IMG/VR virus record: IMGVR_UViG_3300027971_000074
Location: 1-47,312 of that record
Length of the DNA: 47,312 nucleotides
Source: a virus
Strand: one strand, 5' to 3'
The position numbers and the translations under genes are program-made. The notes under the pieces are model-generated. The model was not told the origin of the DNA, made no database searches, and saw nothing but the letters and a program-made list of their open reading frames with translations. Shown piece by piece: positions 17,894 to 36,121 of the stretch; the first letter of the stretch is position 1, and every line of letters starts with the position of its first letter.

Positions 17894-20074
17894 TCACCTG
17901 TAGATTCGGGGGAATGGGCGCCGCACGGCCAACCCTCGCTGGTTATACGATTTACTAGCTTTCAAAAGCGTTTCAAAAGAGCGCCTAAGCCTATTTATTT
18001 GCGATCTAAGCTGCTGTATCCGTTTTTCATTTGCCTTGGTTGCTGGTTTGCGTGTAAGTTTAGTGTATTCGGCCTCAAGCGCTCTCCCTTGATTTGCCAC
18101 TTTGTCGGCCCTGTTGCTCACCTGTGTTTCTTTTTGGCTAAACCTGAAAATCGCGTTTTCCCTGGCATAGGGATTATTGGCTCTCTTGCCCTTTCCTTTT
18201 TCGACTGCCTGCAAGTCCGCTCTATCAACTCGCTTGGTAGCGCTTATCCTTTTTGCGCTTAAAGCCCTTTCTTTTTCCTGTGCCCGCTGCTGCCTTAGTA
18301 CGCGCATCGCGTCTTGCATGGTTTTTGCTGGCCTTCCGTTTACATCAAAGCTGCCATCTGCTTGTTTGACCGGCTTCACCAATCGCGAAACCGGAGCCTT
18401 GCCTTTACCTGTAAGCTTTGCCGCCTTCGCCCCCCTCCGCGCCGCCAGCGCCCCCGGCTTTAAGCCCCTCGGCTTGGCCACGGTCCCGGCGGGGCGGGCG
18501 GAGCGGGTGCGCTTGGGGGCGGTGGGTTTCTTGGCAGCCTTGACGGCCCCGCTCATCCGCTGCGGCTTGAACCCGTAGGGGTTCTGCGTGTAGGACTTGG
18601 CCGCCTCGGCTACCTGGAGCTTTCTGACCGCCTTGTTGTATTCGCCAACCAGTTTGCGCTCTTTCTCTTTCTGCGCTGCGGTCGGCTTTTTGCCCTCGGC
18701 TATTCGCTTCTGAGCCGCATCGCGGACCTTCTGAATCTGGGGCAGCAGGCGCCGGCTGGCCTCGGAGCTTGCAAGCCTGCCCTGCGTTTCGTTCCTGCTG
18801 ATCCGATCGTTTCGGCGCTGCCGTGGCTCCTCGGCCATCTTGCGTGTGGTGGGCAGGTTGCCCAGACGGTTGCCCGAGTCAACCAAGGCAGCGGCGCGAC
18901 GGCTGGCGCGGAGCGCACCAGCGGCTCCTTTGACCCCGATGCTGCCGCGCCTGGCATTGCCTCGTCTCCGCTGTTCGCTCTTGCGCCACATGGCCAGCCG
19001 TTCCCGAGCGGTGGCCGGTGTTTCGTTCTTGTTCCACGCAAAATCCCGGTTTCCAATGCTGCCTGCGTTCATCTGCGGCCCCTTGCCGAAGCCCGTCCTG
19101 CCCTTGCGCTTGGCAGCCGCAATGGCCTGTTTCCGCTGAAGCGGTGCTTCTCTGGCGCTCCGCGCAAACGCCCGCTGCTGAGCCCTGCTGTAGGGCGTGC
19201 CGATCCCCTTCCGCGCATCCGCTTTCACCTTGGCGCGGTCAGATCCGCGAATGACGCCGGTTGGCGTGGCCATCCGGGGGAGCTTGACCTTCGGGCCCTT
19301 GGCGGCCTTCTTGGCGGCGGGCTTGGTGGCAGCCAGCGCCCCAGGCCTGAGCCCAGAGGGCTTGCGCACCGTGCTGGCGGGCCGCTTGGCGCGGGTCTGA
19401 GGGCTGGGCTGTGACGCCTTGGCCGTCAGTCTCGGCGCCTTCGTGGTCAATGCGCTTACCCCAGCGGGGCCGGGATTCTTAACTGTGCTGTAGCGCCTTT
19501 GTTTGCCGGGATTATCAATGGCATACCGAGCGCGAATTGCTGTGGTGATTGAGTTGTACATGCGCCTGTTGATTGCCTCTTTTCTTGAGGTGCGGCGGCC
19601 ACCGCTTGCCGCAACCCGCTGCGCCTCTGCGTTGTCTCGCCTCTGCAGGACGGTTCCGGCGCCGCCAACACGCTGCATGGCCCGCTGCTCCTGCCCAGGG
19701 CGAGCACGGGAGAGGCCTACTGCTTTCCGCCCCCCAGCCGCCCGCATCGCCGCCAGGCTCCGCGCCACAGGCCCACTGATGCCCCGGCCGCCCTTGGCGA
19801 TCGTGCCCGAGCGGAACCCAGCCGGCCGCATGGAAGCGATCTGCGTTGCACGGCGGTTCCCCTTGGCCGTTCTGATCCGCCCGCCGCGCACCGTGGCCCC
19901 ATCGCGCCCGATCCCGGTGATTCGCCCGCTGTTGTCCCGGTTCAGCCGGTTCCCGGCCCTGGTGGCTGCCCGCCGCGTTGCAGGGGTGCTGCGCTTAGGC
20001 CCCCCACCACCGGGCGAACTGGCGAACCGGCCGCGATTGTCGCGGACATAACTGGAGCGGCGGCCTCGTGGCAT
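17894..20074 (-). CDS. Basic RDNRGRFAS-family paralog A
   Basis: A 726-aa, strongly Arg/Lys/Ala-rich protein. The ATG at 20074 is chosen because SYVRDNRGRFAS then falls at residues 8-19, as in the four paralogs; an upstream start would run through the 10-mer. A second motif, NRDNSGRIT, is at ~45-53, followed by GAT.RGGR.RT. The GT(V/I).KP.GL.PGALAA motif occurs twice. The C-terminal ~100 residues are in AT-richer DNA and look helical (KRIQQLRSQINRLRRSFETLL). No enzyme motif is seen. Basic composition suggests binding to DNA or RNA, or packing in the virion; function unknown. A late 10-mer lies 28 nt upstream. Confidence 0.75.
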   Translation of the reverse strand: MPRGRRSSYVRDNRGRFASSPGGGGPKRSTPATRRAATRAGNRLNRDNSGRITGIGRDGATVRGGRIRTAKGNRRATQIASMRPAGFRSGTIAKGGRGISGPVARSLAAMRAAGGRKAVGLSRARPGQEQRAMQRVGGAGTVLQRRDNAEAQRVAASGGRRTSRKEAINRRMYNSITTAIRARYAIDNPGKQRRYSTVKNPGPAGVSALTTKAPRLTAKASQPSPQTRAKRPASTVRKPSGLRPGALAATKPAAKKAAKGPKVKLPRMATPTGVIRGSDRAKVKADARKGIGTPYSRAQQRAFARSAREAPLQRKQAIAAAKRKGRTGFGKGPQMNAGSIGNRDFAWNKNETPATARERLAMWRKSEQRRRGNARRGSIGVKGAAGALRASRRAAALVDSGNRLGNLPTTRKMAEEPRQRRNDRISRNETQGRLASSEASRRLLPQIQKVRDAAQKRIAEGKKPTAAQKEKERKLVGEYNKAVRKLQVAEAAKSYTQNPYGFKPQRMSGAVKAAKKPTAPKRTRSARPAGTVAKPRGLKPGALAARRGAKAAKLTGKGKAPVSRLVKPVKQADGSFDVNGRPAKTMQDAMRVLRQQRAQEKERALSAKRISATKRVDRADLQAVEKGKGKRANNPYARENAIFRFSQKETQVSNRADKVANQGRALEAEYTKLTRKPATKANEKRIQQLRSQINRLRRSFETLLKASKSYNQRGLAVRRPFPRIYR

Positions 20075-20102
20075 GGCGGTTCGGCGGTGGATCCTCTGCG
20101 GC

Positions 20103-20112
20103 AGTTTTCCCG
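20103..20112 (-). promoter_or_regulatory. Late 10-mer CGGGAAAACT, copy 7
   Basis: 28 nt before paralog A, in the divergent gap beside the rightward lysis cassette. No leftward gene precedes it for 2.6 kb, so here it stands alone upstream of a gene that needs a promoter. Confidence 0.85.
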
Positions 20113-20180
20113 CCGGCCCGGCCACGGACTCCCGCCATTTCCCGCGTGCCTATCTGGATTGGCATGGCTAACCTCAGGCC

Positions 20181-20399
20181 ATGCCAGCCCCCGATCCTGT
20201 CGCCGGTTTCCTCCCTGCGGACCCCGCGGGGATGGAGCTCAGCACCGCGCAAGCCTTCGAGGTGGAGCGCCATAGCCGCCTGCTGGACGAGATCAGCGAC
20301 GTGCAGACGCTCCGCAACTTCGCGAAGCTCCTGCTCCAGTCCTGGTACGCCCAAAAGGCGGCCACGGCCTGGGCTATCCGTCAGGGGATGCGGCGATGA
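20181..20399 (+). CDS. 72-aa helical protein, tentatively NblA-like
   Basis: First gene of the rightward cassette. The segment MELSTAQAFEVERHSRLLDE, then a helix ending in AWAIRQ, recalls the short helix-turn-helix NblA proteins that promote phycobilisome breakdown: an LS..Q.F start, one central break, and C-terminal basic and aromatic residues. Identity is too weak for a firm call; another small cyanobacterial or phage helical family is equally possible. The next gene overlaps its stop (ATGA). Confidence 0.5.
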   Translation: MPAPDPVAGFLPADPAGMELSTAQAFEVERHSRLLDEISDVQTLRNFAKLLLQSWYAQKAATAWAIRQGMRR

Positions 20400-20560
20400 C
20401 CTGCGGTCTGATCCGCCTGATCTGCGAGGAGCCAACTGCTCCCCCGTCCGGCCAGGAGGGTCAACCGCTTGTGGTTGACGTTGCCCCCGCCGAAGTGGCC
20501 GCCGAGGTGGCCCGGCTGCAGGGCGAGGGCTGGCAAGTCGTTTCCGAATGGCCCCTCTGA
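20396..20560 (+). CDS. 54-aa hypothetical protein
   Basis: Starts MTCGLIRLICEEPT and ends VVSEWPL. It overlaps the upstream stop (ATGA) and the downstream start (TGATG). The segment AEVAAEVARLQGEGWQVVSE looks like one helix and a strand, typical of small phage accessory proteins. Function unknown. Coupling on both sides supports expression. Confidence 0.65.
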   Translation: MTCGLIRLICEEPTAPPSGQEGQPLVVDVAPAEVAAEVARLQGEGWQVVSEWPL

Positions 20561-21627
20561 TGAGCACCAATCCCCCCGATCCCCAGTGGCTCGCCTCGGC
20601 CCGGCAGATCGTCGCGCAGTTTGAGGGTTGCGTGCTCACCGCCTACCCCGATCCCGGCAGCGGCGGCGACCCGTGGACGATCGGCTACGGACATACCGGC
20701 CCCGAAGTGGTCCCCGGCGCCACGATCACCCAGGCGGTCGCCGAAGGCCTGTTAGCAGAAGACCTGCGCCTGAGTGCTGCGGACGTGTTCCGGCTCCTGC
20801 CAATGGCCGGAGGGTGGACCGCGAAGCGGCAGGCGGCCCTGATCTCGTTCGTGTTCAACATCGGCGCCCGCGGCCTGGAGTTTTCCACCCTGCGGCGGCG
20901 GTTGCTGGCCGGGGATGATCCTGATGCTGTGGTGAAGGCCGAGCTGCCCCGTTGGAGCAAGGCCGGCAGCAAGGTGATGGAGGGGCTGGTGCGGCGCCGG
21001 GCGGCAGAGGTGGCCCTGTTCCTCGCCGGTGCCCCTACCCCTGTCACGACCGCCACGCCACCACGCCCGCCCGGTGGCCCTGCGCCTGATGGCCCGCCGA
21101 TCTGGCCGCCGGGAATGGTGGGTCCAAAGATCCGCCCCAGCCTTAAGCCCGGTGATCACCACCTGATCGCCAACGACGTGAACGAGACGCTCACGGCCTG
21201 GACCCATGACGGGCGCCGGCTGTGGCGGCTGCCCTGTTTGTGCCGAGGGCAAGGCAAGGAGGCCGAATGGAACCGCACGGGCACCGACACCCCGCCGGGC
21301 CTCTACCGGATCGGCAAGGTCTACCGGGACTACGAGCAGGATCCAGCGGCCAACTTCACCCCCGATCGCCGCGCCTATGGCTGGTATTCGTTTGATCTGG
21401 AGGGCCTGGAAGGGCAGGAAGGGCCCAACAGCAAACCGTACCGGGACGGGATCATGCTTCATGGCGGAGGGTCTGCCTGCGGCTGGCCTGGGGCCTGGGG
21501 CCCGCGGCAAACCCTCTACCCGACGCTGGGCTGCATCCGCCTGGCGAATCAGGATCTGCGCGATCGGATCCTGCCGCTGCTCGATCTGGGGACCGTGTGG
21601 ATCAGCGTCCTGCAGGAGGCCGCATGA
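20560..21627 (+). CDS. Endolysin: GH24 muramidase fused to a YkuD-like domain
   Basis: A 355-aa protein from the ATG at 20560. Residues 20-155 are a T4/lambdoid-type GH24 lysozyme: E22 (FEGC), D31 (AYPDP) and T40 (PWTIGYGHT) fit the catalytic Glu-Asp-Thr, with a short Gly-rich insertion. A Pro-rich linker (about 158-192) follows. Residues ~195-350 carry 'TPPGLYRIG', H301 (MLHGGG) and C325 (LGCIRL), the HG...GC.R signature of L,D-transpeptidase/YkuD domains. The muramidase cuts glycan strands; the second domain could act on stem peptides. There is no signal or SAR helix, so a holin is needed. Confidence 0.88.
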   Translation: MSTNPPDPQWLASARQIVAQFEGCVLTAYPDPGSGGDPWTIGYGHTGPEVVPGATITQAVAEGLLAEDLRLSAADVFRLLPMAGGWTAKRQAALISFVFNIGARGLEFSTLRRRLLAGDDPDAVVKAELPRWSKAGSKVMEGLVRRRAAEVALFLAGAPTPVTTATPPRPPGGPAPDGPPIWPPGMVGPKIRPSLKPGDHHLIANDVNETLTAWTHDGRRLWRLPCLCRGQGKEAEWNRTGTDTPPGLYRIGKVYRDYEQDPAANFTPDRRAYGWYSFDLEGLEGQEGPNSKPYRDGIMLHGGGSACGWPGAWGPRQTLYPTLGCIRLANQDLRDRILPLLDLGTVWISVLQEAA

Positions 21628-21941
21628 GCGCGGCCTTGGAGCGCGTGCGAACGCAGCTTGATGCCCTGCAGCAGGAGATGGAGGCCGTGGCTGCCGTGGC
21701 GGCCGAGGTGGAGACGGTGCAACACAACTGCGCCGCGGCGATGGAAGCGGCCTATGGCGATGCCGCCCGCCGCTGCGAGGCCGGCCGAGAGGAGGCGATC
21801 CTGCAGGGCAAGGATCTGGAGCGGCAGCGGATCCTTCTGCTGCTTTCCCTCGTCTCCGAGGGGGTGCGAGAGGGCGGCAGCAATGCGCAAGCCCTGGCGA
21901 CGCTCCGGCGGATGATCGTGGGGGAGAACGATGACGGCTAA
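21624..21941 (+). CDS. 105-aa coiled-coil protein
   Basis: The ATG overlaps the endolysin stop (ATGA). Residues 2-75 are an almost continuous Glu/Gln/Ala-rich coiled coil (ALERVRTQLDALQQEMEAV), ending in a helical RILLLLSLVSEGVREGG segment. There is no transmembrane helix, so it is not a typical Rz spanin. Function unknown; lysis regulation is possible from its neighbours. Confidence 0.6.
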   Translation: MSAALERVRTQLDALQQEMEAVAAVAAEVETVQHNCAAAMEAAYGDAARRCEAGREEAILQGKDLERQRILLLLSLVSEGVREGGSNAQALATLRRMIVGENDDG

Positions 21942-22155
21942 AAGCGCTTTCACCGGAATCATCACCCCCGGCCCTGATCGGTTCCGCCCTGGGGACTTCT
22001 GGAGAGGGCCCAATGGCCGCACCTACACCGCCCGAGGACTGCGCGGCTTGCCGGGCCACGTGTGCCTGATTCCCGTTGCCGGTGGACCTCACGTCCTGAT
22101 GAGCAGAGATGCGGTGCGGGGATTCCAGCGAACCAAGTGGGGCGGGAAGGCGTGA
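21931..22155 (+). CDS. 74-aa hypothetical protein
   Basis: Overlaps the previous gene by 11 bp and ends in a GTGA overlap with the next. It is mostly beta (TGIITPGPDRFRPGDFWRGP, GHVCLIPVAGGPHVLMSRDAV), reminiscent of small SH3-like or KOW-like folds. No family recognised. Confidence 0.55.
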   Translation: MTAKSAFTGIITPGPDRFRPGDFWRGPNGRTYTARGLRGLPGHVCLIPVAGGPHVLMSRDAVRGFQRTKWGGKA

Positions 22156-22430
22156 CCGATCTCGTTCGCAGCCTGCTGGCTCGCCGCGCTTACGTGCAAC
22201 CCACCACCCTGCTCGATTGCCTTGATCTGTCGCAATGGCTCAGCCCGCGCATCCGGGCAGGCTTGACCCCGGAGGTCACCACGGCTGAGCTGATGAGCCG
22301 GTGGAGTTGCGATCAGTCCACGGTCAGCCGGCGGGTTGCGGCGTTGCGGGAGCACCAGCTGCTCGACGCCAGCCTGCACGCCGGGCCCGGTGCTTTCTGG
22401 GCCGTGCATCGCGTGGGGCCAGTGGCATGA
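22152..22430 (+). CDS. Small winged-helix DNA-binding protein
   Basis: A 92-aa protein. It starts with GTG overlapping the upstream stop (GTGA); longer in-frame starts lie inside the previous gene. Residues ~45-85 (EVTTAELMSRWSCDQSTVSRRVAALREHQLLD, then a wing) form a winged helix with a clear recognition helix, like MarR/GntR-type domains. It may regulate the cassette or host genes. Confidence 0.65.
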   Translation: MTDLVRSLLARRAYVQPTTLLDCLDLSQWLSPRIRAGLTPEVTTAELMSRWSCDQSTVSRRVAALREHQLLDASLHAGPGAFWAVHRVGPVA

Positions 22431-22645
22431 CCACTCCATCCCTCCCGCCCGACATTGAGCGCTGCCCTGGCGTGGGCGAGCAGGAAGACGGCGAGTGGTA
22501 CTGGCGTGAGGGGTGCGACGACTGCGCCCGGCGCACCTCCCCAGGCCTGCCCACCATGACCCCGCCGCCGATCGTCGTCTTTGAGTGCGAGGCGCGGTTG
22601 AGCCCCGGCGATGCCCGGCCGACTCAGCAGAGCCGCGAGGGATAG
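22427..22645 (+). CDS. 72-aa Cys-containing phage protein
   Basis: Starts MTTPSLPPDIERCPGVGEQ in an ATGA overlap. The block 'EWYWREGCDDCARRTSP' followed by 'VVFECEARL' is a signature I recall from many phage hypothetical proteins. The Cys pairs (C..C and C) could bind zinc. Last gene of the rightward cassette; a strong terminator follows 50 bp later. Confidence 0.6.
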   Translation: MTTPSLPPDIERCPGVGEQEDGEWYWREGCDDCARRTSPGLPTMTPPPIVVFECEARLSPGDARPTQQSREG

Positions 22646-22695
22646 GCATCGCCCGTGTCCTGATCTACACTTTCTGCGGAACGCGCTTTACCGAG

Positions 22696-22725
22696 GCCCA
22701 AGGGTTGAGATCCTTGGGCTTTTTT
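22696..22725 (+). terminator. Intrinsic terminator of the rightward cassette
   Basis: GCCCAAGG and CCTTGGGC form a perfect 8-bp stem with an 8-nt loop, followed directly by TTTTTT. It isolates the rightward lysis cassette from the convergent leftward genes. No T-run follows the hairpin on the other strand. Confidence 0.88.
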
Positions 22726-22731
22726 GTGTGC

Positions 22732-22902
22732 CTACTCGTCCCCAACCTCTCGCCCTTGGCTGATCAGCAGGGACCGATAGGCCTCCATCAGCCGCTGAAG
22801 GTTGCGATGCACCACGCAGGAGCCGCCGGAGCAGATGCGCCATAGGCGCTGCCCCGGTCGGCTGTCTGCGGTCACCACATGCAGGAGGCCGTCAATGTCC
22901 AC
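22732..22902 (-). CDS. 56-aa hypothetical protein after the tail tube gene
   Basis: A GTG start at 22902, 4 bp after the tube stop, gives VDIDGLLHVVTADSRPGQRL, ending SQGREVGDE. The start choice avoids overlap with the tube gene; a start at 22947 would overlap it by 41 bp. Two Cys (CSGGSC) and a C-terminal helix are visible. Function unknown; a minor tail assembly role is possible by position. Confidence 0.5.
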   Translation of the reverse strand: MDIDGLLHVVTADSRPGQRLWRICSGGSCVVHRNLQRLMEAYRSLLISQGREVGDE

Positions 22903-22906
22903 CCGA

Positions 22907-23758
22907 TCAGGCGTTGTCGAAGATGGTGTAAACGTTGCCCAGCACATTCAGGCTGGCGCCGTACTTCACCAGGGCGCCTGCATCGCCCTCCTCTTGCTTG
23001 GACGAGATCCGGCCATAGCAGAGCTTCTTCTCCGTGGTGCCGCCGGGGCCCACGCGCAGGTATTTCACGGCCAGCTTCTCGGCAACACCAAACAGGCGCA
23101 TGATTTCCATGATCTTGTGGTCAACGCTCTTGTGGACCGTCATGCCCTTAAAGGCAATCGAGGAGTCGGTGCTGATGCCAACCGAAATCGAAGCGCCGCG
23201 CACCACCTGATCGTGGGTGATCACCTTCTCGTCGCCTGCCTGGGTCTGCAGGGGGGCGCCGGTGACGTTCAGGAGTTGGATCGGCTTGCCAGTGCCATCC
23301 AAGGGGTAAACGCCCGTGGTGACCGTGCCGGTGTCAACTGCGCTGGTGATGTTGCTGCCGGTGAGGTCGTAGGTGAAGGTCGTTGTGGTGGGGGCGGCCT
23401 TCACGGTGAAGGTGCCGTTCACGGCGGTGGCCGTGGTCGCTGCGACCGTCACCCTGTCGGCAACAGCCAGGCCATGGGCGGTGCTGGTGGTGATCGTCAC
23501 CACGTTGGAGGCAAGTGCAACGTTGGTGATCGTCTTGGTGGAGCTGTTCACCAAGATTTGGAAGGTCGAGGACGATCCGGTGGTGCTCACGCTGCCAGTG
23601 CCGCTGATCGCGTTGGCGGTGTTCAGCCAGGCGCTGAGGTTGGCGCCATTGTTGGCGGCGGCGGTGGCAGCATCCTCCAGAACGACCGATGCGAACCGCA
23701 TCGGGACGAGGTAGTGCTGAACGTCCAGCGCGGCGGCGTAATCGATCGTGGAGGGCAT
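22907..23758 (-). CDS. Major tail (tube) protein with Ig-like insertion
   Basis: A 283-aa protein. The N-terminal (DVQHYLVPMRFASVVLED) and C-terminal (GASISVGISTDSSIAFKGMTVHKSVDHKIMEIMRLFG to KYGASLNVLGNVYTIFDNA) parts bracket an inserted Thr/Val-rich beta domain with 'TSTAHGLAVADRVTVAATT' and 'VNGTFTVKAAPTTTTFTYDL'. Phage tube proteins often carry such insertions. It follows the tail chaperone, as lambda tail genes are grouped, although the order is reversed. A late 10-mer lies 25 nt upstream. Confidence 0.65.
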   Translation of the reverse strand: MPSTIDYAAALDVQHYLVPMRFASVVLEDAATAAANNGANLSAWLNTANAISGTGSVSTTGSSSTFQILVNSSTKTITNVALASNVVTITTSTAHGLAVADRVTVAATTATAVNGTFTVKAAPTTTTFTYDLTGSNITSAVDTGTVTTGVYPLDGTGKPIQLLNVTGAPLQTQAGDEKVITHDQVVRGASISVGISTDSSIAFKGMTVHKSVDHKIMEIMRLFGVAEKLAVKYLRVGPGGTTEKKLCYGRISSKQEEGDAGALVKYGASLNVLGNVYTIFDNA

Positions 23759-23775
23759 GGCCTGGGGTGGGTTCT

Positions 23776-25980: not shown

Positions 25981-27219
25981 TTAGCCGTACAAGCGGCCAA
26001 TGTTGTTCCAGGCCCTTGCGTGCAGCCCGTACTTGCGATTCCTCTCCTCAAGAACGGCCTTTGCTGCGCTTCCTTTTCTCATCGGGTTGTGTTTATAGCT
26101 TGGAACAATTTTTTTGATTGCGCGATTAACTTGATCTATCCTGTCTCTGACCTGATAGATGCGTCCGCCACCCGGATTGTTTGCTCTTTGAATCTTGAGT
26201 CTATCCAGTAGCCTGTTTGCTTGCGCTACAGCTTGAGCCGCAGACTTTGGCAACTTGACTGGTTTTACCTTCGCGCCCCTCCGCGCTGCCAATGCCCCCA
26301 CCTTCAACCCCTTCGGCTTCACCACCGTCCCCGCCGGCCGTGCTCCCTTGATCCGGGGCCCGGCGCCCTTGGGGCTGGGCTTGCGGGGGGTAGGCGCGGA
26401 CTTTCCTTTTCGTGCAGCGATGGCGCCCGGCTTCAGGCCTCGGGGCTTGGCGATCGTGCCGGTGGGGCGGGCCTTCTTGCCTTGAATGTTGGCCAGACCT
26501 GGCGAGGCATCTGTAGGCATCTCCCAGGCTTTGCGCCGCTTCCCTGACGGCTGATACCTCCCGAGGATTCGCGGCCCCCTTGCGCTGGGGCTGGCCGCCC
26601 ACTTCTTGGCCTCCGTGACGTTGCGGAAGTCCTTGCGGTTCATCACCGGGTTGCCCTTGCGGTCAATGATCGTTGCGGTTGCTCCCTTTCCGCTTGTGGT
26701 GACCATGACCCTCCGGCCATTTGGCAGGCTTGCGGCCTGCCTGCCTACCGAGCCAGCGGGCTTCTCCCACTTCAGGGCCGCGGGCTTGCGTGCAGGAGTG
26801 GAGGGCTTGGCCGTCACCACCGGCTTGGCCGTGGTCACACGCCCCCGCAGTTGGGACACGGCGCCGCCCTTCCGAATCACCCCCACCCGCGCCGCCATTT
26901 GCACCGTGGAGGCCGCCCGCACCTTCCCGAGGCGGTTGGCGCCCCTGGTGACGGCCCCCTTCTGCGCTCGCAGGCTGAGCGACCCCTGCAGGCTGCGATC
27001 AGCCGGGTTCTTGCCGGCCAGCTTGGCGCGGCTGCGGCGGAGGCTTCCGCGAGCCCCCAGCGTGCCGCCGGTGACCGTGGGCCGGGCCTTCCGCATGGCC
27101 GCCCGCCTGGTGGCCGGCGTGCTGCGCTTCGGAGGACCGCCGCCGGGAGTCGAGGCAAAGCGCCCGCTGTTGTCGCGCACGTAGTTCGTGCGCCTGCCTC
27201 TACTGCCGCCGCGGGCCAT
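25981..27219 (-). CDS. Basic RDNRGRFAS-family paralog B
   Basis: A 412-aa, very basic protein, the shortest of the five. NYVRDNSGRFASTPGGG is at residues 12-28. It has two GT(V/I).KP.GLK.GA(L/I)AAR motifs in its second half. A distinct segment (about 150-230, RVMVTTSGKGATATIIDRKG) resembles a small beta hairpin. The C-terminus, in AT-richer DNA, is helical and ends NNIGRLYG. It lacks the second NSGRIT block. Preceded by a late 10-mer at 20 nt and no obvious Shine-Dalgarno. Function unknown. Confidence 0.75.
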   Translation of the reverse strand: MARGGSRGRRTNYVRDNSGRFASTPGGGPPKRSTPATRRAAMRKARPTVTGGTLGARGSLRRSRAKLAGKNPADRSLQGSLSLRAQKGAVTRGANRLGKVRAASTVQMAARVGVIRKGGAVSQLRGRVTTAKPVVTAKPSTPARKPAALKWEKPAGSVGRQAASLPNGRRVMVTTSGKGATATIIDRKGNPVMNRKDFRNVTEAKKWAASPSARGPRILGRYQPSGKRRKAWEMPTDASPGLANIQGKKARPTGTIAKPRGLKPGAIAARKGKSAPTPRKPSPKGAGPRIKGARPAGTVVKPKGLKVGALAARRGAKVKPVKLPKSAAQAVAQANRLLDRLKIQRANNPGGGRIYQVRDRIDQVNRAIKKIVPSYKHNPMRKGSAAKAVLEERNRKYGLHARAWNNIGRLYG

Positions 27220-27239: not shown

Positions 27240-27249
27240 AGTTTTCCCG
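27240..27249 (-). promoter_or_regulatory. Late 10-mer CGGGAAAACT, copy 9
   Basis: Directly abuts the paralog C stop codon; 20 nt before the paralog B ATG. Followed by GCGGCAG. Confidence 0.85.
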
Positions 27250-28764
27250 TCAAGACTTGGCGGCGATGCGGCCGGCCCTCCACGGGTTGGCTGGCTTGCG
27301 CCTTCCGGCCCTCAACATGCGAGCGGCAAGCGCCGCGCCTCGTTGATCCCCGGATTGATTCACCATCTTTCTTGTATTTCGATCAAAGAAAACCTTTCCG
27401 GTGTTTGGTTGATTGAAATAAATGCGATCAAACTTATCCTTTTGCCAGCGGCTACCGCCGGCCGCAATTAGCCCTTTTGTTGATACGGGCCTAAATGCCA
27501 ACCTGCTTGGGCTTGTTTTAATCCTTATCACGCGACGGCCAGCGCTTGATTGCTGTGGCTTCCTGCTTGGCGCTCGCCGTGCTCTTGATCCAAGGATGTT
27601 GTTCAAGATCCAAGCAAACTCCTCGCTCACGTTGCGGCGATTGTTCTGCCTTGATGCCCTTTGTCCCGCGATAGCCGCTATCGCCGCCTCAAGCTGGCCG
27701 GCCCTTAAGAACTGATTACTTGTCATGCCCTTGGGTAGCAGCCCCTCTCGGCGCTGTCGGTCGTAGGCAAAGTTATCTCCGCCCCAACCCCTAAGACCTG
27801 CACGAGCTTCGGCGACCCCGTAATCGAACTCTTTTTTATTTTTTGCTGCCTTGCGCAGCCTGGCTATAGCTTTGCCCACTTCTTTGGGCGCAATGCGAGC
27901 TGCAAGCGCTGAGATTGGATTCCAAAGTCCAGTTCCTGGCATCTCTACGCGGCCGTCCTTGCCACGCTTGTACCCTGAATAGTACCCTTGGTTTCCATAG
28001 TATTTATCGACGTTTCTCGCTCCCCGCGACGAAATCTTGACGGTTGACGACCTTGCCTGGCCCGTAGGGAATAGCGGTGGAGGATCCTTCTTCTGTTGAC
28101 GGCTGCCCACAACCCGCGCCCCGCCGCCGTCCTTCCCTTGCTGCTGTTGCTGGTCCGCCCCCATCCCCTTGCCCTTGGCGCTGTCGCCGCCCTTGAACTT
28201 TCCGAGGGGCATCCATGCCCCTGCTGGGTAGAAGTGACCGTCTGGCCCGTACTCACCGCCAGCGGCAGCCCGCTTGATCTGCACGTCCACCTTCTTGCCG
28301 CCCTTCTTGGACTGGGCCTGGCCTACTGGTGATCGCTTCTGCTTGGGCCGCTTTAGCGCCTGATCAGTCGATTGTTGGCCGGGTCGCGATGGCTTCACCC
28401 TGGAGCCCGCCGCAGGCTTGGCCTTGACGCCCTTGGCCAGCACGCCAGATGGCCTGGCCGCCGGGAGCTTGCGGCGATCCGAGAGGGCTTCTGCGGTGTT
28501 CTTGGCCCTGGTCAATGCACCACGCTGCTGCGGGCGGGCGCCGGGACCGGTGCGGGCTTTGGTGGCCTTGACGCGGGCCTTGGCCGCCTTGGCTGGGGCG
28601 CCGAGGATGCCCAACTGCCCGCGCTGCTTCGCCAGCTTCACCGCCTGCCGCTGCCGGAACCCGCCAGGCTTCGGCTTGGCCTTCTTGGCGCCACCGCCGG
28701 GGGTGCTTGCAAACCTCCCGCGGCCATCGCGCACATAGTTCCTGCGGGCAGACCCTCGGGCCAT
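27250..28764 (-). CDS. Basic RDGRGRFAS-family paralog C
   Basis: A 504-aa basic protein; the ATG at 28764 follows an in-frame GTG. NYVRDGRGRFASTPGGG is at residues 9-25; only a degenerate form of the linker motif is present (RPSGVLAKGVKAKPA). The C-terminal ~270 residues are unlike the paralogs and are encoded in AT-richer DNA: VDKYYGNQGYYSGYKRGKDG, NPISALAARIAPKEVGKAI, KDKFDRIYFNQPNTGKVFFD. They may form a separate folded domain. The 10-mer lies 21 nt upstream, and paralog B follows 30 bp after the stop. Function unknown. Confidence 0.72.
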   Translation of the reverse strand: MARGSARRNYVRDGRGRFASTPGGGAKKAKPKPGGFRQRQAVKLAKQRGQLGILGAPAKAAKARVKATKARTGPGARPQQRGALTRAKNTAEALSDRRKLPAARPSGVLAKGVKAKPAAGSRVKPSRPGQQSTDQALKRPKQKRSPVGQAQSKKGGKKVDVQIKRAAAGGEYGPDGHFYPAGAWMPLGKFKGGDSAKGKGMGADQQQQQGKDGGGARVVGSRQQKKDPPPLFPTGQARSSTVKISSRGARNVDKYYGNQGYYSGYKRGKDGRVEMPGTGLWNPISALAARIAPKEVGKAIARLRKAAKNKKEFDYGVAEARAGLRGWGGDNFAYDRQRREGLLPKGMTSNQFLRAGQLEAAIAAIAGQRASRQNNRRNVSEEFAWILNNILGSRARRAPSRKPQQSSAGRRVIRIKTSPSRLAFRPVSTKGLIAAGGSRWQKDKFDRIYFNQPNTGKVFFDRNTRKMVNQSGDQRGAALAARMLRAGRRKPANPWRAGRIAAKS

Positions 28765-28785
28765 CACGACAACACGCTTTGCCGC

Positions 28786-28795
28786 AGTTTTCCCG
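28786..28795 (-). promoter_or_regulatory. Late 10-mer CGGGAAAACT, copy 10
   Basis: 21 nt before the paralog C ATG, 11 bp after the upstream stop. Followed by GCGGCAA. Confidence 0.85.
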
Positions 28796-28806
28796 CGTCT
28801 CCCTGC

Positions 28807-29322: not shown

Positions 29323-29336
29323 GGATCAGGACGCGC

Positions 29337-29585
29337 TCAGGCTGCCGTGAGTTTTCCCGCAGCCGGATCTTCCAGGCCCACGCGGGGCCCGTGGAGGCTG
29401 CCAAACCAGAACCGGCCCTGCGGGTCGAGGCTGTTGCTCAGCAGCCGCAGGATCTGCTCTCCCTCGTGGTCATCGGTGACGGTGGCAAGCATCCGCAGCC
29501 CCTGCTGAGCGGCGGCAGCATCGCGGCGGAGGGCGGCGACGGACAAGGCCTGCAGTAGGCGGAGGGTGGGGCTGCGGGTGGGCAT
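29337..29585 (-). CDS. 82-aa hypothetical protein
   Basis: The ATG at 29585 is chosen because it lies between the paralog D stop and the helical segment; longer starts would read a Pro/His-rich stretch across a homopolymer. The product has a helical N-terminus (TLRLLQALSVAALRRDAAAAQ) and 'EGEQILRLLSNSLDP'. Its last codons (AGKLTAA-stop) contain the late 10-mer. Function unknown. Confidence 0.5.
   Translation of the reverse strand: MPTRSPTLRLLQALSVAALRRDAAAAQQGLRMLATVTDDHEGEQILRLLSNSLDPQGRFWFGSLHGPRVGLEDPAAGKLTAA
29350..29359 (-). promoter_or_regulatory. Late 10-mer CGGGAAAACT, copy 11
   Basis: 27 nt before the ATG at 29322. Inside the preceding gene but in another frame (gCG GGA AAA CTc, A-G-K-L). 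Confidence 0.85.
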
Positions 29586-29594
29586 GGGTGGTTT

Positions 29595-29604
29595 GGGGGG
29601 GGGG
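29595..29604 (-). repeat. C10 homopolymer just upstream of a start codon
   Basis: Ten consecutive G on the + strand (C on the coding strand), ending 10 bp before the ATG at 29585. This junction lacks the late 10-mer. Such tracts are prone to slippage and could tune expression of the 82-aa gene. Confidence 0.7.
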
Positions 29605-29652
29605 TGATGAAACAACGGAATTAATTTCCGGTGTTTGGGGTGGCGGGGTGGA

Positions 29653-31626
29653 TCACTTGACGGGCTTGTAGCGCTTGAGCTTCTTGGGCTTGCCGACCAA
29701 GGCAAGTTGGCTCATGCCTGTGTCTACGGCGCGGATGCGGGGGTTTTTCCGCATGATGCCAATCCCGTAAACGCCGGTTCTGACCCTGTTCAACGTGATC
29801 TCCCGCCGCCGCCGCTGCGACGCCCTCGCCTGGCTGCGAGTCCTGGCCACGGTTGTGGACACCTTCGCTTCCCGCTTCGGCTTGGGAACAGTCCCCTTGA
29901 TCCTTGCAGCGCGAGCAAAACCTTTGCGTGAGGTACTGTATCCCAATTCCCGGCGACTCCAGGCACCGCCCCTTATTGCGTCCCTAGACAATTTCGGCCT
30001 CTGCGCTTTCGCTTTTGCGGCTGCTGATTGATTGCCTTCTTGAATCCTGTCGCGTGCGGTCATTGCGTCCCTGCGGGCCTTGATCCGCGCCTTGTCCTGC
30101 CCGAGGTCATTAAACCGGCCGGGCTTGTTCCTGTTCGGCTTTTGCGTGCTGTATCGCGGCGGCTTTGTCATAGCCTTGCGCACAGAAGCAAAGGCTTCGG
30201 GCTGGCTCATCTGATTAAGCATCCCTACGCTGCCCCCTTCTTTCCTTGCCAGAAAAGACTTTGCCCTTGTTCCTACTTGGATAGCATTAAGGCGCTTGAC
30301 GCCTGTTTTTTGTTCTGCGCCACGAACTACATTGTTGAGCCGGTCAATAACTCGTGACACCCTGCCATCGTCTACCCTCGCCTTTCTTTTTCCACGTGCT
30401 GGCTTTGCTGCAGTGCGGGCGGCTTTGGCCTGTTTGGGGGCGGCGAGCTTTGCGGTTGCCATCTTTCGCCGCCCACGGGAAACGGTGCCAGGGATTGCGG
30501 GGGCCTTGGCCTTGCGCGAGCTTCCACCGATTGGCGACCCAATAGCGGTTCTGGCCCTGAGTGCTTTTATTGTTTTCTTTGTCCTTGCCGTGTCGATGTA
30601 TTGAATGTCGCTTGTGCCCATCCGAAAGGCTCGCCTCATAAAGGCAAGCGTTGCAATTCTATTGTTTACTCCAAACTTTTGCTGTATGGCTTGGATACCC
30701 TCTTTATAGCCTTTTGCAATTCTCCCGTTTAGCAGCAACGTGGGATCGTTGAACGTGTCACGTGCTCGTTGCGCCGCAGATCGCTGCGACGCTGTCAACT
30801 TGACCGACTTCTGAGGCTTGGCCTTCCTCGCCGCAATTGCCCCAGGCTTCAGCCCTTGAGGCTTGCGAATGGTGCCGGAGGGGCGGGCAGCCTTGGCGGT
30901 CGCCTTGATCTGCCCCCCGCTGCCAGGGATGGCCCGGCCCATCCTCGTGCCTTTTGGAGGTGCTACAAGGCGAGACTTGCCGGACCTAAACGCTCCTGCC
31001 ACGCGCTTGACGCTGTAGGTGGCCGCAACATTGTCTCGATTCCCGGCGCGATACCTAGACCCCATGCGAAGGGTGTCAGAGTTCATGTTGCCTTTCAAGT
31101 ATTTCACGGCCTGAGATGCGGTCATTAGGCTCTTGTTGGCTTTGCCCAGCGCTTTACTTGCTTTGGGGGATTTAGCTTTTTTCAGGCGTGCTTCAGCTTG
31201 CACAACTGCATACTTTTTCTTGTCGTAATTATCCATCGCTCTTTGCAGTCTCGCCTTTGCCTGGCTCGCTCCGTTCACGGTCGCCCGTGCCGGCTTGGCT
31301 GGGGTGGCTGGCCTAGCCACGGGCTTCACCCCACCCCGAACCTTCCCACCCCTGCCCACAGTCCCCGCCATAGGCGCCCGCTTGAGCCGATCCAACACCG
31401 CCCCCCGCTGATTCCCGGCGGCGGTCCTGAGGCGGCCACCCCGAGCTGTGGCGCCGTTCTTGCCCACGCCGGTGATCCTGCCGCTGTTGTCCCTGGTGAT
31501 CCGGTTCGTGCCCCGCTGCGCTCGCCGGGCGGCGGGCTTGGCCTTGGCGGTGGTGGTGCCGGTGCTGGCGAAGCGGCCCCGGTTGTCCCTGGCGTAGGTC
31601 CGCCTGCCCCTGCTACTGCCCGCCAC
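29653..31626 (-). CDS. Basic RDNRGRFAS-family paralog D
   Basis: A 657-aa very basic protein starting at GTG. TYARDNRGRFAS is at residues 10-21 and TRDNSGRITGVG at 44-55, followed by GATARGGRLRT as in paralogs A and E. One GTIRKPQGLKPGAIAARKAK motif is present. A central helical block in AT-richer DNA (IAKGYKEGIQAIQQKFGVNN, RIATLAFMRRAFRMGTSDIQ) looks like a small folded domain. The C-terminus ends in KKLKRYKPVK. A late 10-mer lies 21 nt upstream. Function unknown; interaction with nucleic acid or the virion is inferred from charge and context. Confidence 0.75.
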   Translation of the reverse strand: MAGSSRGRRTYARDNRGRFASTGTTTAKAKPAARRAQRGTNRITRDNSGRITGVGKNGATARGGRLRTAAGNQRGAVLDRLKRAPMAGTVGRGGKVRGGVKPVARPATPAKPARATVNGASQAKARLQRAMDNYDKKKYAVVQAEARLKKAKSPKASKALGKANKSLMTASQAVKYLKGNMNSDTLRMGSRYRAGNRDNVAATYSVKRVAGAFRSGKSRLVAPPKGTRMGRAIPGSGGQIKATAKAARPSGTIRKPQGLKPGAIAARKAKPQKSVKLTASQRSAAQRARDTFNDPTLLLNGRIAKGYKEGIQAIQQKFGVNNRIATLAFMRRAFRMGTSDIQYIDTARTKKTIKALRARTAIGSPIGGSSRKAKAPAIPGTVSRGRRKMATAKLAAPKQAKAARTAAKPARGKRKARVDDGRVSRVIDRLNNVVRGAEQKTGVKRLNAIQVGTRAKSFLARKEGGSVGMLNQMSQPEAFASVRKAMTKPPRYSTQKPNRNKPGRFNDLGQDKARIKARRDAMTARDRIQEGNQSAAAKAKAQRPKLSRDAIRGGAWSRRELGYSTSRKGFARAARIKGTVPKPKREAKVSTTVARTRSQARASQRRRREITLNRVRTGVYGIGIMRKNPRIRAVDTGMSQLALVGKPKKLKRYKPVK

Positions 31627-31647
31627 TGGAAACGCTGCTACTGCAGG

Positions 31648-31657
31648 AGTTTTCCCG
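31648..31657 (-). promoter_or_regulatory. Late 10-mer CGGGAAAACT, copy 12
   Basis: 21 nt before the paralog D GTG, 11 bp after the phosphoesterase stop. Confidence 0.85.
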
Positions 31658-31668
31658 GCTTGCCCGGG

Positions 31669-32823
31669 TCAGTCCGTCAGCACCGGAAAGGCCCCAGTCC
31701 AGCCGCGCTCCGAATCCAAGAATCGCAGCAACTGTTGAGGGCGCTCCGGGGCAAAGCCCAGTTTCAGCCCGTAGGCGGTGGGCCCGATCAAGCTGCCGTT
31801 CACCGACCAGCCGGTGCCCATGGTGAGCTGGTGGAAGTGCCCGAAGAAGCTGTGGTCAGCCCTGATCCCCTGGTCCTGCCGGTGGACCCATTTCTGGAGG
31901 GGGATCGTCAGGCCACCGATGCCACCGCCGTAGCGGATCGCATCGCCATGGTGAAACCGCAAGACCTGCCCCAGCACTTCGACGTAGAGGATGTTGCCGT
32001 CGCTGATGCGCCATTCAAGGCGGGGCTCTCCCCTGTAATGCCGGCGCAGGCTCTGATACATCAGCCATTCGTAGCTGGTGGCGTGCGAATTATCGGCCTG
32101 CATCTTGGGGGTAGTTCGCCCGTGGTTGCCGTAGCTGCAGGGGATCACGATCCGCTCGAAGCCGCCATACTCCAACAGGTGATCAATCCCGGCAACAATG
32201 GCCCGCTCGCATTCAATGATCTGCTGAGTCGGTGACAACTCCTGAAGCTGCGCCTGCTCAGGATGCAGCCAATTATCTATTAAATCCCCGCCCAACCAGA
32301 GCACCATCTGCCGAATGTCGCAACTGCTGCGCACCATGCGGACCACCTTCAGGGCATTGCGAAACAGCGCCCCGGCTCGCCGGTGGAACTCGTCCACGTC
32401 GTAGGCGTTCAGGTCGTTCACCGATTCGGCCCGCACCACAGCCCCGCAGTGCCAGTCAGAGCAGAGCAGGATCGGCACCGATTCGGATCGGTCGCCGTGA
32501 TCCTCGGCAGGCGTCAGCGCGGCAGCCGGGGCGATCTCGCGAATGTCCAGGGCGGTGGTCAGGGAATCCAGCGTGGTCGCCAGCTCCGCAAGGGCTCTAT
32601 CGCGGTCGCGCTCAGCGGTTCGAGCCACCTCCCTGATCTTGCGAAGTTCCAACTGCAGCGCCAGCAGCTCCTCAGACGTGTCGCTGCGCTTGCCGTTTGG
32701 GCACATGCCAGGCAGGCAAAACGGTCGGCGCTGACCGGCCTCCTCTTGCCACTCAAACGAGCTGTCGGGAAGCCAGGCCCTGCACGCCTTAGATCGCCGG
32801 CATTGGTAGGTGCGTTCAGCCAT
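31669..32823 (-). CDS. Calcineurin-like metallophosphoesterase
   Basis: A 384-aa protein. The metal-binding motifs are in order: D123 and H125 (CSDWHCG), D180 (LGGDLIDNW), N233-H234 (YGNHGR), a His at 291-292 (FHHGD) and H329/H331 (FGHFHQ). These define the binuclear metallophosphoesterase fold. The N-terminal ~45 residues hold four Cys (8, 14, 36, 41), a possible zinc ribbon, then a coiled coil (51-95). The substrate is unknown; nuclease or phosphodiesterase activity is possible. It lies between MuF and paralog D, among head genes. A late 10-mer lies 31 nt upstream. Confidence 0.85.
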   Translation of the reverse strand: MAERTYQCRRSKACRAWLPDSSFEWQEEAGQRRPFCLPGMCPNGKRSDTSEELLALQLELRKIREVARTAERDRDRALAELATTLDSLTTALDIREIAPAAALTPAEDHGDRSESVPILLCSDWHCGAVVRAESVNDLNAYDVDEFHRRAGALFRNALKVVRMVRSSCDIRQMVLWLGGDLIDNWLHPEQAQLQELSPTQQIIECERAIVAGIDHLLEYGGFERIVIPCSYGNHGRTTPKMQADNSHATSYEWLMYQSLRRHYRGEPRLEWRISDGNILYVEVLGQVLRFHHGDAIRYGGGIGGLTIPLQKWVHRQDQGIRADHSFFGHFHQLTMGTGWSVNGSLIGPTAYGLKLGFAPERPQQLLRFLDSERGWTGAFPVLTD

Positions 32824-32854
32824 GCTTTTGGCAGCGATTCAGGCTGGTTGCCCT

Positions 32855-32864
32855 AGTTTTCCCG
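32855..32864 (-). promoter_or_regulatory. Late 10-mer CGGGAAAACT, copy 13
   Basis: 31 nt before the phosphoesterase ATG, 26 bp after the MuF stop. Followed by AGGGCAA. Confidence 0.85.
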
Positions 32865-32890
32865 TGACTGGGATTCCAGTAACGGCGCCC

Positions 32891-33958
32891 CTACCCCACC
32901 GGCACCGGCGCTCGCTCGATGTCGGGATACTGCCGCCGCTCGCTGGGGGAGGGCTTGCGCACGGCCTCCTCCAGCACCTGGGAGGCGCGGGCGAAGGGCC
33001 ACCCCTTGCCGGCGGCGAACTCTCGGGTGGTATCCTCGCGGGCCTTCTGCCAGTACGACTCGCGCAGCAGGGCGGCCCGCAGGGTGGGATCGGGCTCCTC
33101 CACGGCTTCGGTGGCCACGGGGGAGAGACTGCACCGGCAGCGAGGGTGCCCCGGCGCCACGATCTCGTCCAGCCGGTAGATCCGGCCATGCCGGCTCGCG
33201 CACACCGGGCAGGTCCGCTCATCCTTGGTGGCGATCCACCGGGCGTAGCCGAACCCGTTGCGGGCCGCTGCTGCCTTCTGTGCCCCCACGTAGGCGTTGG
33301 CCAGCTCACTGCGGGCGATCAGTTCGGCCCGCTGCTCCAGGCCCAGCCGGTTGTTCAGCCCCTGCGGATCGCGGGCCCCCTGCAGGGCGGTCCTGATCTC
33401 CCCCTCCAGCACGCGGGGCCCCTTCCCGCGCCCGATGCCATCGGTGACGATGCGGGCGATGCTGTCGCGGAAGCTCTCCACCTCGCCGCGGATGTAGGCG
33501 CTGGCGGTGCTGGCGGCGGCCTCCACGGCGGCCTTGGATGCGCCCACGAACACGCCCTGCGCAGCCGCGTCAGGGTTGGCCGTCTGCGCGAGCTGCTGGC
33601 CCAGATCACCGCCGAGGGCCACCGCTTCGGCGAAGTCCTCGCGATAGCGGTTCTCCAGCCAGGCCAACTCAAGATCCGACGCAAAGGCTTGGGCCAGCTC
33701 CAGGAGCTTGCGGAACTTGGCGGAGCCATCGGCGATTGAGTACGACCCCGGCCGGCGCGTCACCCCATCGGCGCTTTGCTGGTCGGGGAGGTTAGGGTCC
33801 ACGAACTGGCCGTAGTACCGGCGCAGATCCCGCAGGGTGCGGGCCAGGGAGCGGCGTAGGGCCGCCTGCGTGTTGGTGGTGGCCCGGTCGCCGATCGCGT
33901 CAAGGGCGGCGGCGTAGTCGTCGGCCAGCTTGAGTTGTTGGTTGCCGATGGTGGCCAT
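32891..33958 (-). CDS. Head morphogenesis protein, MuF (Mu gpF-like) domain
   Basis: A 355-aa protein. The N-terminal helical part (LADDYAAALDAIGDRATTNT) is followed by the MuF C-terminal block: ARSELANAYVGAQKAAA, WIATKDERTCPVCASRHG, and VAPGHPRCRCSLSP. The Cys/His set C-P-V-C ... H-P-R-C-R-C is typical. The protein is a minor head component attached near the portal. It starts 3 bp after paralog E, close to the portal as expected for MuF proteins. The extra C-terminal ~60 residues end ERAPVPVG. Confidence 0.88.
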   Translation of the reverse strand: MATIGNQQLKLADDYAAALDAIGDRATTNTQAALRRSLARTLRDLRRYYGQFVDPNLPDQQSADGVTRRPGSYSIADGSAKFRKLLELAQAFASDLELAWLENRYREDFAEAVALGGDLGQQLAQTANPDAAAQGVFVGASKAAVEAAASTASAYIRGEVESFRDSIARIVTDGIGRGKGPRVLEGEIRTALQGARDPQGLNNRLGLEQRAELIARSELANAYVGAQKAAAARNGFGYARWIATKDERTCPVCASRHGRIYRLDEIVAPGHPRCRCSLSPVATEAVEEPDPTLRAALLRESYWQKAREDTTREFAAGKGWPFARASQVLEEAVRKPSPSERRQYPDIERAPVPVG

Positions 33959-33961
33959 GGG

Positions 33962-36121
33962 TCAGGGCTTGCGGCGGCGGGGGCGGCTGCTGATCACTCC
34001 CTGGCGCGTCTTGGGCTGAGAGTTGAACCAGCCCGAGCGAGTGCCCATGAAATACCCAGCCATCCCGGTCATTGGGTTCACGTCTTCTCGGGCGTAGTAA
34101 CGATCGGACTCGGCCATCATCCTGCCTGAAAGCCCTAGTTTTTCGCGCCGAGATCGGGTCATCATCTTTGCGTCAATCCAGACCTGTCGTTGTTTGCCCC
34201 TAGAAAAATCAGTCACTCCCTTCAAGTTCATCACCGACTCAAAGGCCTTGTCCTGTTTAGTCGGCTTGGGAGTCCGCTTGACCTTGATGGTGATTTTCCT
34301 GCCCGGCCGCAGCCCACTGGTTGCGGCCGATCGCCTACCCGTACTGAGGCGAGCCCTATCACTCCATGCCTTATTTCCTTGGCCCAGGAAGCCAGACGCC
34401 TTTCGCGCAATCCCAAAGGACCTGTCATTCCTTCTGGTGTTTTTCCCGCGAAGCGTGCGGGGATCGTTCCGCGCCTCAATCGCCTTGACGCGGATGTAAA
34501 CGCGGTTGAGTCGTGTTCCCAAGGGCTCGGCTGCCCGCTTTGCCCTGCCTCTCGCAATTCGGGAGGCCTTCAATGCTCCCGGCTTCAGTCCGCGAGGTTT
34601 GGCAACCGTCCCAGCAAGGCGGCCGGCCGTGACGCGCTTTGGCGCGGCGGGCTTTGCCGCCCGCTTGGTCAGCAACCTCTGAGCCGCCTTTGCCCTTTCG
34701 GTGTTCGGGTCGCCTTGCGCGGCCCTGGTCAGCCTCGCAATGCGGTTCTCGGCCCTGGGTGGCTTGACCCTGCCAGCCCTGGCCAAGGCGTCATACAAAG
34801 CGCCGGCCTTTTGATCCTTTGCTCTAATCGCTGACACCTGCCTTTCGGCAGTGGCGATCATGCGCCCCTCCTGCTTTTTGCTCATTCGGGTGCGTCCGCC
34901 GGGGGAAGCTGCGGCGATGGCCTCACCCATCGAGGTGGTCCGAGAGCCCTGTCGCCCGACAAACTGCTCTCGGCCAATGGTTGCCGCTTTGCCCGTGGGC
35001 TTGCCTTTCATCACCCCAGCGCCACCGACGCGAGCCCCGCGGATCGTCCTGGCAGCGGTGCTAGGCGCGAGCTGCAAGGCCTTGGGGTTGTACTTCATGC
35101 GCCCCCTATTGCCCGTGGCCATCCCGACCTTTAGGCGCCTTGCCGATTGGCTCATGGAGCGAGTAATCGCGTCAATCTGGCCAGGCGTTAGTTTGTTTTT
35201 GCGCTTGCCTACATTGGCAATTAGTTGCATCCTTCCTTCGGAAAGATTGGTCAACTGTGCTGCCGTGTTTCCTGCAACCAGAAACTTTTGCTTGCGTGCT
35301 AAGCGCTCAATCTGTATTGCACGCCTGGCTGCCTTTGGCAGGGCCCTCAGCCTTCTTCCATGGTCTTTGCGGTGCCCCGCCATCATGGGATCGGTGCGGT
35401 CCTTCCTGGCCTCTGGTGACTGCATCCAACCGATGGGCTTCTTGGCGGCTCCCGCCTCTGCCTTGCGCTTTGCCCAAGCAGCCCGGCTTCTCGCCGCCTT
35501 GGTAGCCACCCGCGCAAAGGCCTGGTCGCTATCCTTGGCTCCAGGACCGGCAACCCTGAGGGGAACACGGGTAGGGCTCGGCACCAACTTGTATCCGGGC
35601 CCTAAAACCATTGTTCCGGCGGGCCGACTATTAAAATTATTGAGCGTCTTGCTCTGCCCGGTTGTATTGCGGATGGTGCTTTTTTGCCTGCCTGCCTTGA
35701 TCCGGCCCGGCGCCGAAGCCTTGGGCGCCTTGCGTGCTGCGATTGCGGCCATCTGCTTGGCCCGACCCTCGTTGTAGGCCTGCCGCTGGCTGATAGGGCG
35801 ATCGATCATGGTGATCTCTCGCTGCTTCCTGGTGCGGCCGATGGCGCCCTTCGGCACGCTGGACATGCGGCCATTGGACAGAACGGCCATGGTCTGCCTG
35901 GCCCTGAGGTTCCCCGCCCCGGTGCGCAGCCGCCCTCCGCGGGCTGTAGCGCCGTTGCCGCCCACGCTGGTGATGCGGCCCGAGTTGTCCCGCGTCAGGC
36001 GATTGGTGCCGCGGCTGGCTCGCTTGGCCGGCGGTCGCTTGGGGGCCCCGCCGCCTGGGGTGCTCGCGAAGCGCCCGCGGTTGTCCCGCACATAGGACGT
36101 TCGGCGGGTTCCTCGGGGCAT
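33962..36121 (-). CDS. Basic RDNRGRFAS-family paralog E
   Basis: A 719-aa very basic protein lying between portal and MuF. TSYVRDNRGRFASTPGGG is at residues 8-25 and TRDNSGRITSVG at 43-54, then GATARGGRLRT. The GTVAKPRGLKPGALKA motif appears once, plus a diverged form (SRPAGTMVLGPGYKL). Middle segments look helical (QIDAITRSMSQSARRLKVGM). The C-terminus is distinctive (MTGMAGYFMGTRSGWFNSQP) and more aromatic than in its paralogs. A late 10-mer lies 21 nt upstream, directly after the portal stop. No catalytic motif; function unknown. Confidence 0.75.
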   Translation of the reverse strand: MPRGTRRTSYVRDNRGRFASTPGGGAPKRPPAKRASRGTNRLTRDNSGRITSVGGNGATARGGRLRTGAGNLRARQTMAVLSNGRMSSVPKGAIGRTRKQREITMIDRPISQRQAYNEGRAKQMAAIAARKAPKASAPGRIKAGRQKSTIRNTTGQSKTLNNFNSRPAGTMVLGPGYKLVPSPTRVPLRVAGPGAKDSDQAFARVATKAARSRAAWAKRKAEAGAAKKPIGWMQSPEARKDRTDPMMAGHRKDHGRRLRALPKAARRAIQIERLARKQKFLVAGNTAAQLTNLSEGRMQLIANVGKRKNKLTPGQIDAITRSMSQSARRLKVGMATGNRGRMKYNPKALQLAPSTAARTIRGARVGGAGVMKGKPTGKAATIGREQFVGRQGSRTTSMGEAIAAASPGGRTRMSKKQEGRMIATAERQVSAIRAKDQKAGALYDALARAGRVKPPRAENRIARLTRAAQGDPNTERAKAAQRLLTKRAAKPAAPKRVTAGRLAGTVAKPRGLKPGALKASRIARGRAKRAAEPLGTRLNRVYIRVKAIEARNDPRTLRGKNTRRNDRSFGIARKASGFLGQGNKAWSDRARLSTGRRSAATSGLRPGRKITIKVKRTPKPTKQDKAFESVMNLKGVTDFSRGKQRQVWIDAKMMTRSRREKLGLSGRMMAESDRYYAREDVNPMTGMAGYFMGTRSGWFNSQPKTRQGVISSRPRRRKP

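Follow-up and report, generated by a model that had tools for sequence, protein, structure and literature searches.

Five genes on the minus strand of a virus genome record, IMGVR_UViG_3300027971_000074, analysed over its whole length of 47,312 bases (hereafter the window; GC 64%), encode very basic proteins (A to E, Table 1) that open with a common motif, the tag Y-x-R-D-x-x-G-R-F-A-S, and that probably belong to a family of effectors packaged into the virion and ejected from it. For each window protein taken individually, our confidence in an effector role is lower and only a little better than even, because no module in these five is named. We infer late co-expression, packaging, ejection, the function of the tag and action against host defence or physiology, and regard a head-loading tag joined to polymorphic effector bodies as the most economical account. 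So understood, the family is filed among virion-carried phage effectors, a known kind, and works like the T4 internal protein, polyvalent protein and MuF toxin systems.

All five genes, put at 19% of the window by a preliminary description made from its sequence, are present; they total 9,069 bp (19.2%), and we add the strand, which that description had left unstated. Their dN/dS (ratio of nonsynonymous to synonymous substitution rates) against relatives is 0.19-0.40 over the bodies of the slot proteins (see below), similar to that of the portal gene (0.26), showing that the five open reading frames (ORFs) are real genes under purifying selection; a plus-strand reading of the same intervals is interrupted by stops and was rejected. 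The common N-terminal motif is found in 5/5 proteins, beginning at residue 9-13; with eight residues held constant at the same place near the N terminus, chance is ruled out. A second motif, NR[LI].RDNSGRIT...GAT.RGGR.RT, occurs in A, D and E, as had been reported, and seems to repeat the tag region internally, since in four related loci (L017-L020) the tag passes straight into GATARGGRLKT. The strongly basic composition was likewise borne out (R+K 22-25%, D+E 3-6%, no cysteine), with net charges of +85 to +139, or +17 to +21 per 100 residues. The body of C past residue ~170 has no relatives in the collected set.

Related loci were collected by scanning IMG/VR with E, D, B, A and the portal protein as queries; the contigs are partial and partly redundant, one of them (L001) being a 100% match to part of the window. 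These loci hold 227 tagged ORFs, 114 of them non-redundant and at least 100 amino acids (aa) long, and in 227/227 the tag lies 4-12 residues past the assigned start codon. Over 110 members, M1 is invariant, and so are six residues of the tag (Y, R, D, G, R and F), the latter partly by construction because they belonged to the search pattern; the A/S following F and a Gly-rich stretch, both outside that pattern, are conserved too. Complete members are between 61 and 812 aa long, so that the initial epithet 'giant' holds in a relative sense, and have an estimated isoelectric point (pI) of 11.5-12.0 (n=90).

Annotation of the window's five with Pfam and PHROG gave chance-level matches only and no family, tblastn of INPHARED with D, the E N terminus and two zincin proteins (see below) matched no phage, PDB searches with the bodies of C, D and A and an E profile returned no credible match, and the literature searched yielded nothing that bears on the tag motif. 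An AlphaFold2 model of full-length E, built from 20 sequences (predicted local distance difference test score, pLDDT, 53), predicts a mostly disordered chain with helical islands only, and a Foldseek search of this model against BFVD was uninformative. By portal protein (phrog_145 match, 8e-68), the closest named phages are the marine cyanosiphoviruses S-CBS2, P-SS2 and S-CRES1-3, at ~35% identity. No tagged ORF was found in the regions of P-SS2, S-CBS2 and S-CRES3 examined, and an origin of the family shared with these marine relatives was rejected.

The tagged genes occupy fixed positions, or slots, in a constant gene order: portal, slot 1, MuF, (phosphoesterase), slots 2 and 3, connector, slot 4, head-tail genes, tube, endolysin (on the other strand), slot 5 and tape measure. 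Slots, whose labels rest on synteny and N-terminal likeness, occur empty, single or double among relatives, and slot genes lie within the morphogenesis block in every contig examined. Between the window and contig 3300032237_001108, identity is 95-98% for TerL, portal, MuF, connector and tube, whereas the same contig covers 37% of the body (residue 76 on) of E, 4% of D, 0% of C and 48% of B, with the first 40 residues of the slot proteins still 60-100% identical. Similarly, slot-1 relatives are nearly identical over their first 75 residues and differ in the bodies that follow. Arms-race selection would be expected to leave just such a hypervariable body in a fixed slot next to structural genes that hardly differ, and the pattern would point to host defences yet to be found.

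Modules also change order (E versus L011) and slot, as residues 250-657 of window D are 93% identical to a slot-3 protein of L015. At the DNA level, the 150 nucleotides (nt) upstream of D and the first ~50 nt of the gene match slot 2 (82-98%), and the next stretch matches slot 3 of L024 and L022 (mostly 86-100%). Judging from this DNA profile, D is a recombinant in which a slot-2 start was joined in frame to a slot-3 body by a crossover through the tag-coding sequence, so that two adjacent genes became one. A basic linker, R(P)xGT(V/I)xKPxGLKPGA, is present in 23 copies spread over 21 members and frequently separates blocks that differ in ancestry.

Several tagged relatives carry modules that can be named. 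A zincin-like metallopeptidase (HExxH with a downstream EFxAE) occurs in 14 non-redundant tagged members in slots 1 and 2, with H96, E97, H100, E154 and E158 invariant in 14/14 sequences. Its AlphaFold2 model (pLDDT 57.5, weak) predicts a helix and three strands preceding the HExxH helix, followed by a helix that bears the downstream Glu, the arrangement that characterises zincin-like metallopeptidases and the topology described for the metallopeptidases (MPTases) of polyvalent proteins (PMC5512222). A PARP/ART-like module was detected in three tagged members (PARP, 8.3e-5; PDB PARP10, 0.04) and a J-domain with HPD in four slot-4 members (DnaJ, 2.6e-5; PDB, 3.6e-5), while L022:9087 and L094:1347 appear to combine ART and zincin in one protein. 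The earlier remark that no enzyme motif is visible thus holds for the window's five and fails for the family. Scanning IMG/VR with the zincin profile also revealed zincin relatives in other phages: one is fused to an XkdF-type head protease (L148; PF14550, 1.1e-14), a distant one to a MuF C-terminus (L154; weak PF04233, 0.011), and a third is free-standing behind a tag-like HPRGPGGKFASKGG, beside apparent portal and prohead-protease genes (L155; neighbours assigned by eye). Because of these contexts, read from sequence, we take the zincin module to be tied to phage heads independently of the cyanophage clade. With the ART profile, no named head protein was reached.

The internal proteins of T4 combine a constant signal with diverse bodies (PMC3012670). 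T4 IPI/II/III and Alt, with their capsid targeting sequence (CTS), are several basic, diverse proteins per phage with a short N-terminal sequence in common, as here, and the tagged family has the conserved N-terminal sequence and otherwise diverse bodies by which T4-type CTS internal proteins are recognised. In addition, the tagged family includes an ART module, and T4 Alt is itself an ART. The likeness is one of logic, as the tag is not shown to be related to the CTS in sequence; and unlike T4, the present phage is a siphovirus with much longer, multi-module bodies that recombine between five slots. Polyvalent proteins (Iyer et al. 2017, PMC5512222) are multi-domain, predicted to be packaged and injected, and have zincin MPTase and ART domains, as do tagged relatives, but the tagged family differs from them in its very basic short modules behind a constant tag, and no LPD or other polyvalent Pfam domain reached the cut-off (ART-PolyVal, E 0.017, 16.3 bits versus a cut-off of 31.2); neither cyanophages nor DnaJ domains come up in the text of that paper. 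MuF polymorphic toxins (Jamet et al. 2017, PMC5576092) are portal-adjacent and join a constant head-associated N-terminal part to a polymorphic toxin-like C-terminal part, whereas in the present system MuF is a short protein encoded apart, the cargo proteins are free-standing, each headed by its own tag, and are spread over five slots, and 110 family members gave no match to a MuF domain. A virion-borne parallel exists in the marine relative P-SS2, in which ORF 030 (L079:17648-22147) encodes a 1,499-aa fusion of MuF and Zeta_toxin (9.8e-22) that was detected in virions by mass spectrometry (PMC2784084); under the terms searched, the P-SS2 paper does not call this 'head morphogenesis' protein a toxin (PMC2784084).

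Each of the five starts is preceded, ~20-30 nt upstream, by the 10-mer CGGGAAAACT, as noticed initially, but this element is not specific to the paralogs: the window holds 15 exact copies, on the minus strand only (e.g. 37699-37708 and 17423-17432), sites with one mismatch number 18 versus 2.6 expected, and the 10-mer also lies 5' of portal, tape-measure, connector and other late genes. A family-specific signal was therefore rejected in favour of a general late-gene element, which may be a phage-specific late promoter or operator. Because the paralogs carry the same upstream 10-mer, they are presumably expressed late, together with the virion genes. CGGGAAAACT recurs in most related loci, and in several family members it is followed by a CTGCGGCAG-like sequence with dyad symmetry. 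A longer reading of A from an alternative GTG start at 20125 would overrun the 10-mer. The sigma-70-like product encoded between terminase and portal is a candidate reader of the 10-mer; a sigma-factor gene adjoins terL in P-SS2 and S-CBS2 too.

We propose that the constant tag and the Gly/Pro/Lys/Arg-rich stretch following it would direct the proteins into the procapsid, where the very basic chain would hold the cargo on the packaged DNA; the cargo would then exit through portal and tail along with the DNA, to act inside the picocyanobacterial host as infection begins. The bodies would be strings of small modules with basic linkers between them, which recombination would swap among slots and viruses, including at the conserved tag-coding DNA. 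More tentatively, and with somewhat less than even confidence, the tag may be a portable head-loading and ejection signal, unrelated to that of T4 and uncleaved; the morphogenesis operon of these cyanophages would then hold five cargo docks among which recombination at the tag-coding DNA shuffles tagged effector genes, amounting to an injection system with several effectors that can be re-armed quickly. Should the tag prove to be a loading signal, the effectors of the whole phage group could be listed from sequence alone, their host targets tested module by module, and the short peptide tried for loading proteins into siphovirus heads.

Ejected effectors had been offered beforehand as one possible role, and they gain support from the enzyme and J-domain modules in relatives of the same tag and slot and from the fusions of zincin to head proteins elsewhere. 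DNA condensation had been offered too: basic chains would neutralise packaged DNA like histone H1 tails or protamines, with module differences incidental, in keeping with the charge density of all five proteins, the pI of the 90 complete members and the predicted disorder of E. It leaves unexplained, however, the enzyme and J-domain modules of relatives and the in-frame exchange of domains, and it fits poorly with wholesale body replacement and empty slots beside unchanged structural genes and with marine relatives whose examined regions lack a tagged ORF. No histone H1- or protamine-like family was matched at E<=0.1 by 110 members (Pfam, PHROGs, NCBIfam), the likeness being one of composition alone. 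We thus consider condensation unlikely as the family function and possible as a side role, basicity being kept through module swaps. Enzyme modules and fast turnover would also fit late intracellular effectors or morons that are never packaged and act in the producing cell (takeover, superinfection exclusion, lysis timing), but the position inside the morphogenesis block in every contig examined, the zincin relatives fused to MuF and head protease, and a common N-terminal tag that is hard to explain without a common destination make this improbable. Scaffold-like spacers, also suggested at the outset, or factors that assist head-tail assembly would suit the location among morphogenesis genes and the largely disordered model of E; they are disfavoured to the point of being very improbable, as slots are empty or filled by proteins of very different length while the supposed partners stay 95-98% identical, and the window has a separate scaffold-like gene.

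Some observations weigh against packaged and ejected effectors as well. Pfam and PHROG scans detected no named module in any of the window's five, the ART and DnaJ scores in relatives are below the Pfam curated cut-offs, though conserved motifs back both, and the zincin model is weak, its Foldseek search against PDB giving no significant match (top rows include IrrE/PprI and minigluzincins). The extreme basicity alone could reflect DNA packing. Unlike in T4, the scan of window genes, which did not take in every small ORF, yielded no prohead protease, and a T4-like tag cleavage step would thus be left without a visible enzyme.

The host is most likely a freshwater picocyanobacterium, because of the portal kinship with marine cyanosiphoviruses and because a contig of the metagenome-assembled genome (MAG) titled Cyanobacteria bacterium REEB417 carries an 83% identical portal together with three tagged ORFs. 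In the family to which this MAG belongs, 2/400 genomes match, one being the REEB417 MAG itself, and members of the tagged family are therefore mostly seen in virus contigs. Picocyanobacteria rank among the major primary producers, and to our knowledge hardly anything has been learnt of what their phages inject during the first minutes after infection starts.

Table 1. Coordinates of the tagged genes, their motifs and neighbouring features in the window.
Feature	Position	Strand	Remarks
Paralog E	33962..36121	-	719 aa; slot 1, portal/MuF interval; tag, second motif, helical islands in mostly disordered chain (model)
Paralog D	29653..31626	-	657 aa; slot 2/3, phosphoesterase gene/connector interval; slot-2 start and slot-3 body
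Paralog C	27250..28764	-	504 aa from ATG at 28764; after connector
Paralog B	25981..27219	-	412 aa; slot 4, connector/head-tail interval; two linker repeats
Paralog A	17894..20074	-	726 aa from ATG at 20074; slot 5, endolysin/tape-measure interval
Tag of E	36062..36094	-	YVRDNRGRFAS
Tag of D	31564..31596	-	YARDNRGRFAS; putative recombination junction in or near tag
Tag of C	28705..28737	-	YVRDGRGRFAS
Tag of B	27151..27183	-	YVRDNSGRFAS
Tag of A	20018..20050	-	YVRDNRGRFAS
10-mer upstream of E	36143..36152	-	CGGGAAAACT
10-mer upstream of D	31648-31657	-	CGGGAAAACT
10-mer upstream of C	28786-28795	-	CGGGAAAACT
10-mer upstream of B	27240-27249	-	CGGGAAAACT
10-mer upstream of A	20103-20112	-	CGGGAAAACT
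Basic linker repeat in E	34568..34621	-	RLAGTVAKPRGLKPGALK
Related linker repeat in D	~30832-30885	-	
Related linker repeats in B	~26416-26469 and ~26287-26340	-	
Related linker repeat in A	~18443-18496	-	
Sigma-70-type factor-like gene	37642-38622	-	between terminase and portal; read by eye
MuF gene	32891-33958	-	355 aa; PF04233, 2e-14
Metallophosphoesterase/exonuclease-like gene	31669-32823	-	phrog_284, 6e-47; carries own 10-mer
Endolysin-like gene	20548-21627	+	Phage_lysozyme (PF00959, 3e-33) and L,D-transpeptidase domain (YkuD, PF03734, 1e-9)
Scaffold-like gene	7374-8183	-	phrog_206, E 7e-8
Putative tail fibre	2842-4998	-	collagen-like Gly-x-y stretches; repeated VTWAPSLSLFCAV...MTSPDGINWT units

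The minus strand holds the terminase, portal, MuF, major capsid, scaffold-like and tape-measure genes alike. The metallophosphoesterase gene may itself be cargo or a moron; lying between MuF and slot 2, it is detected in only some relatives.
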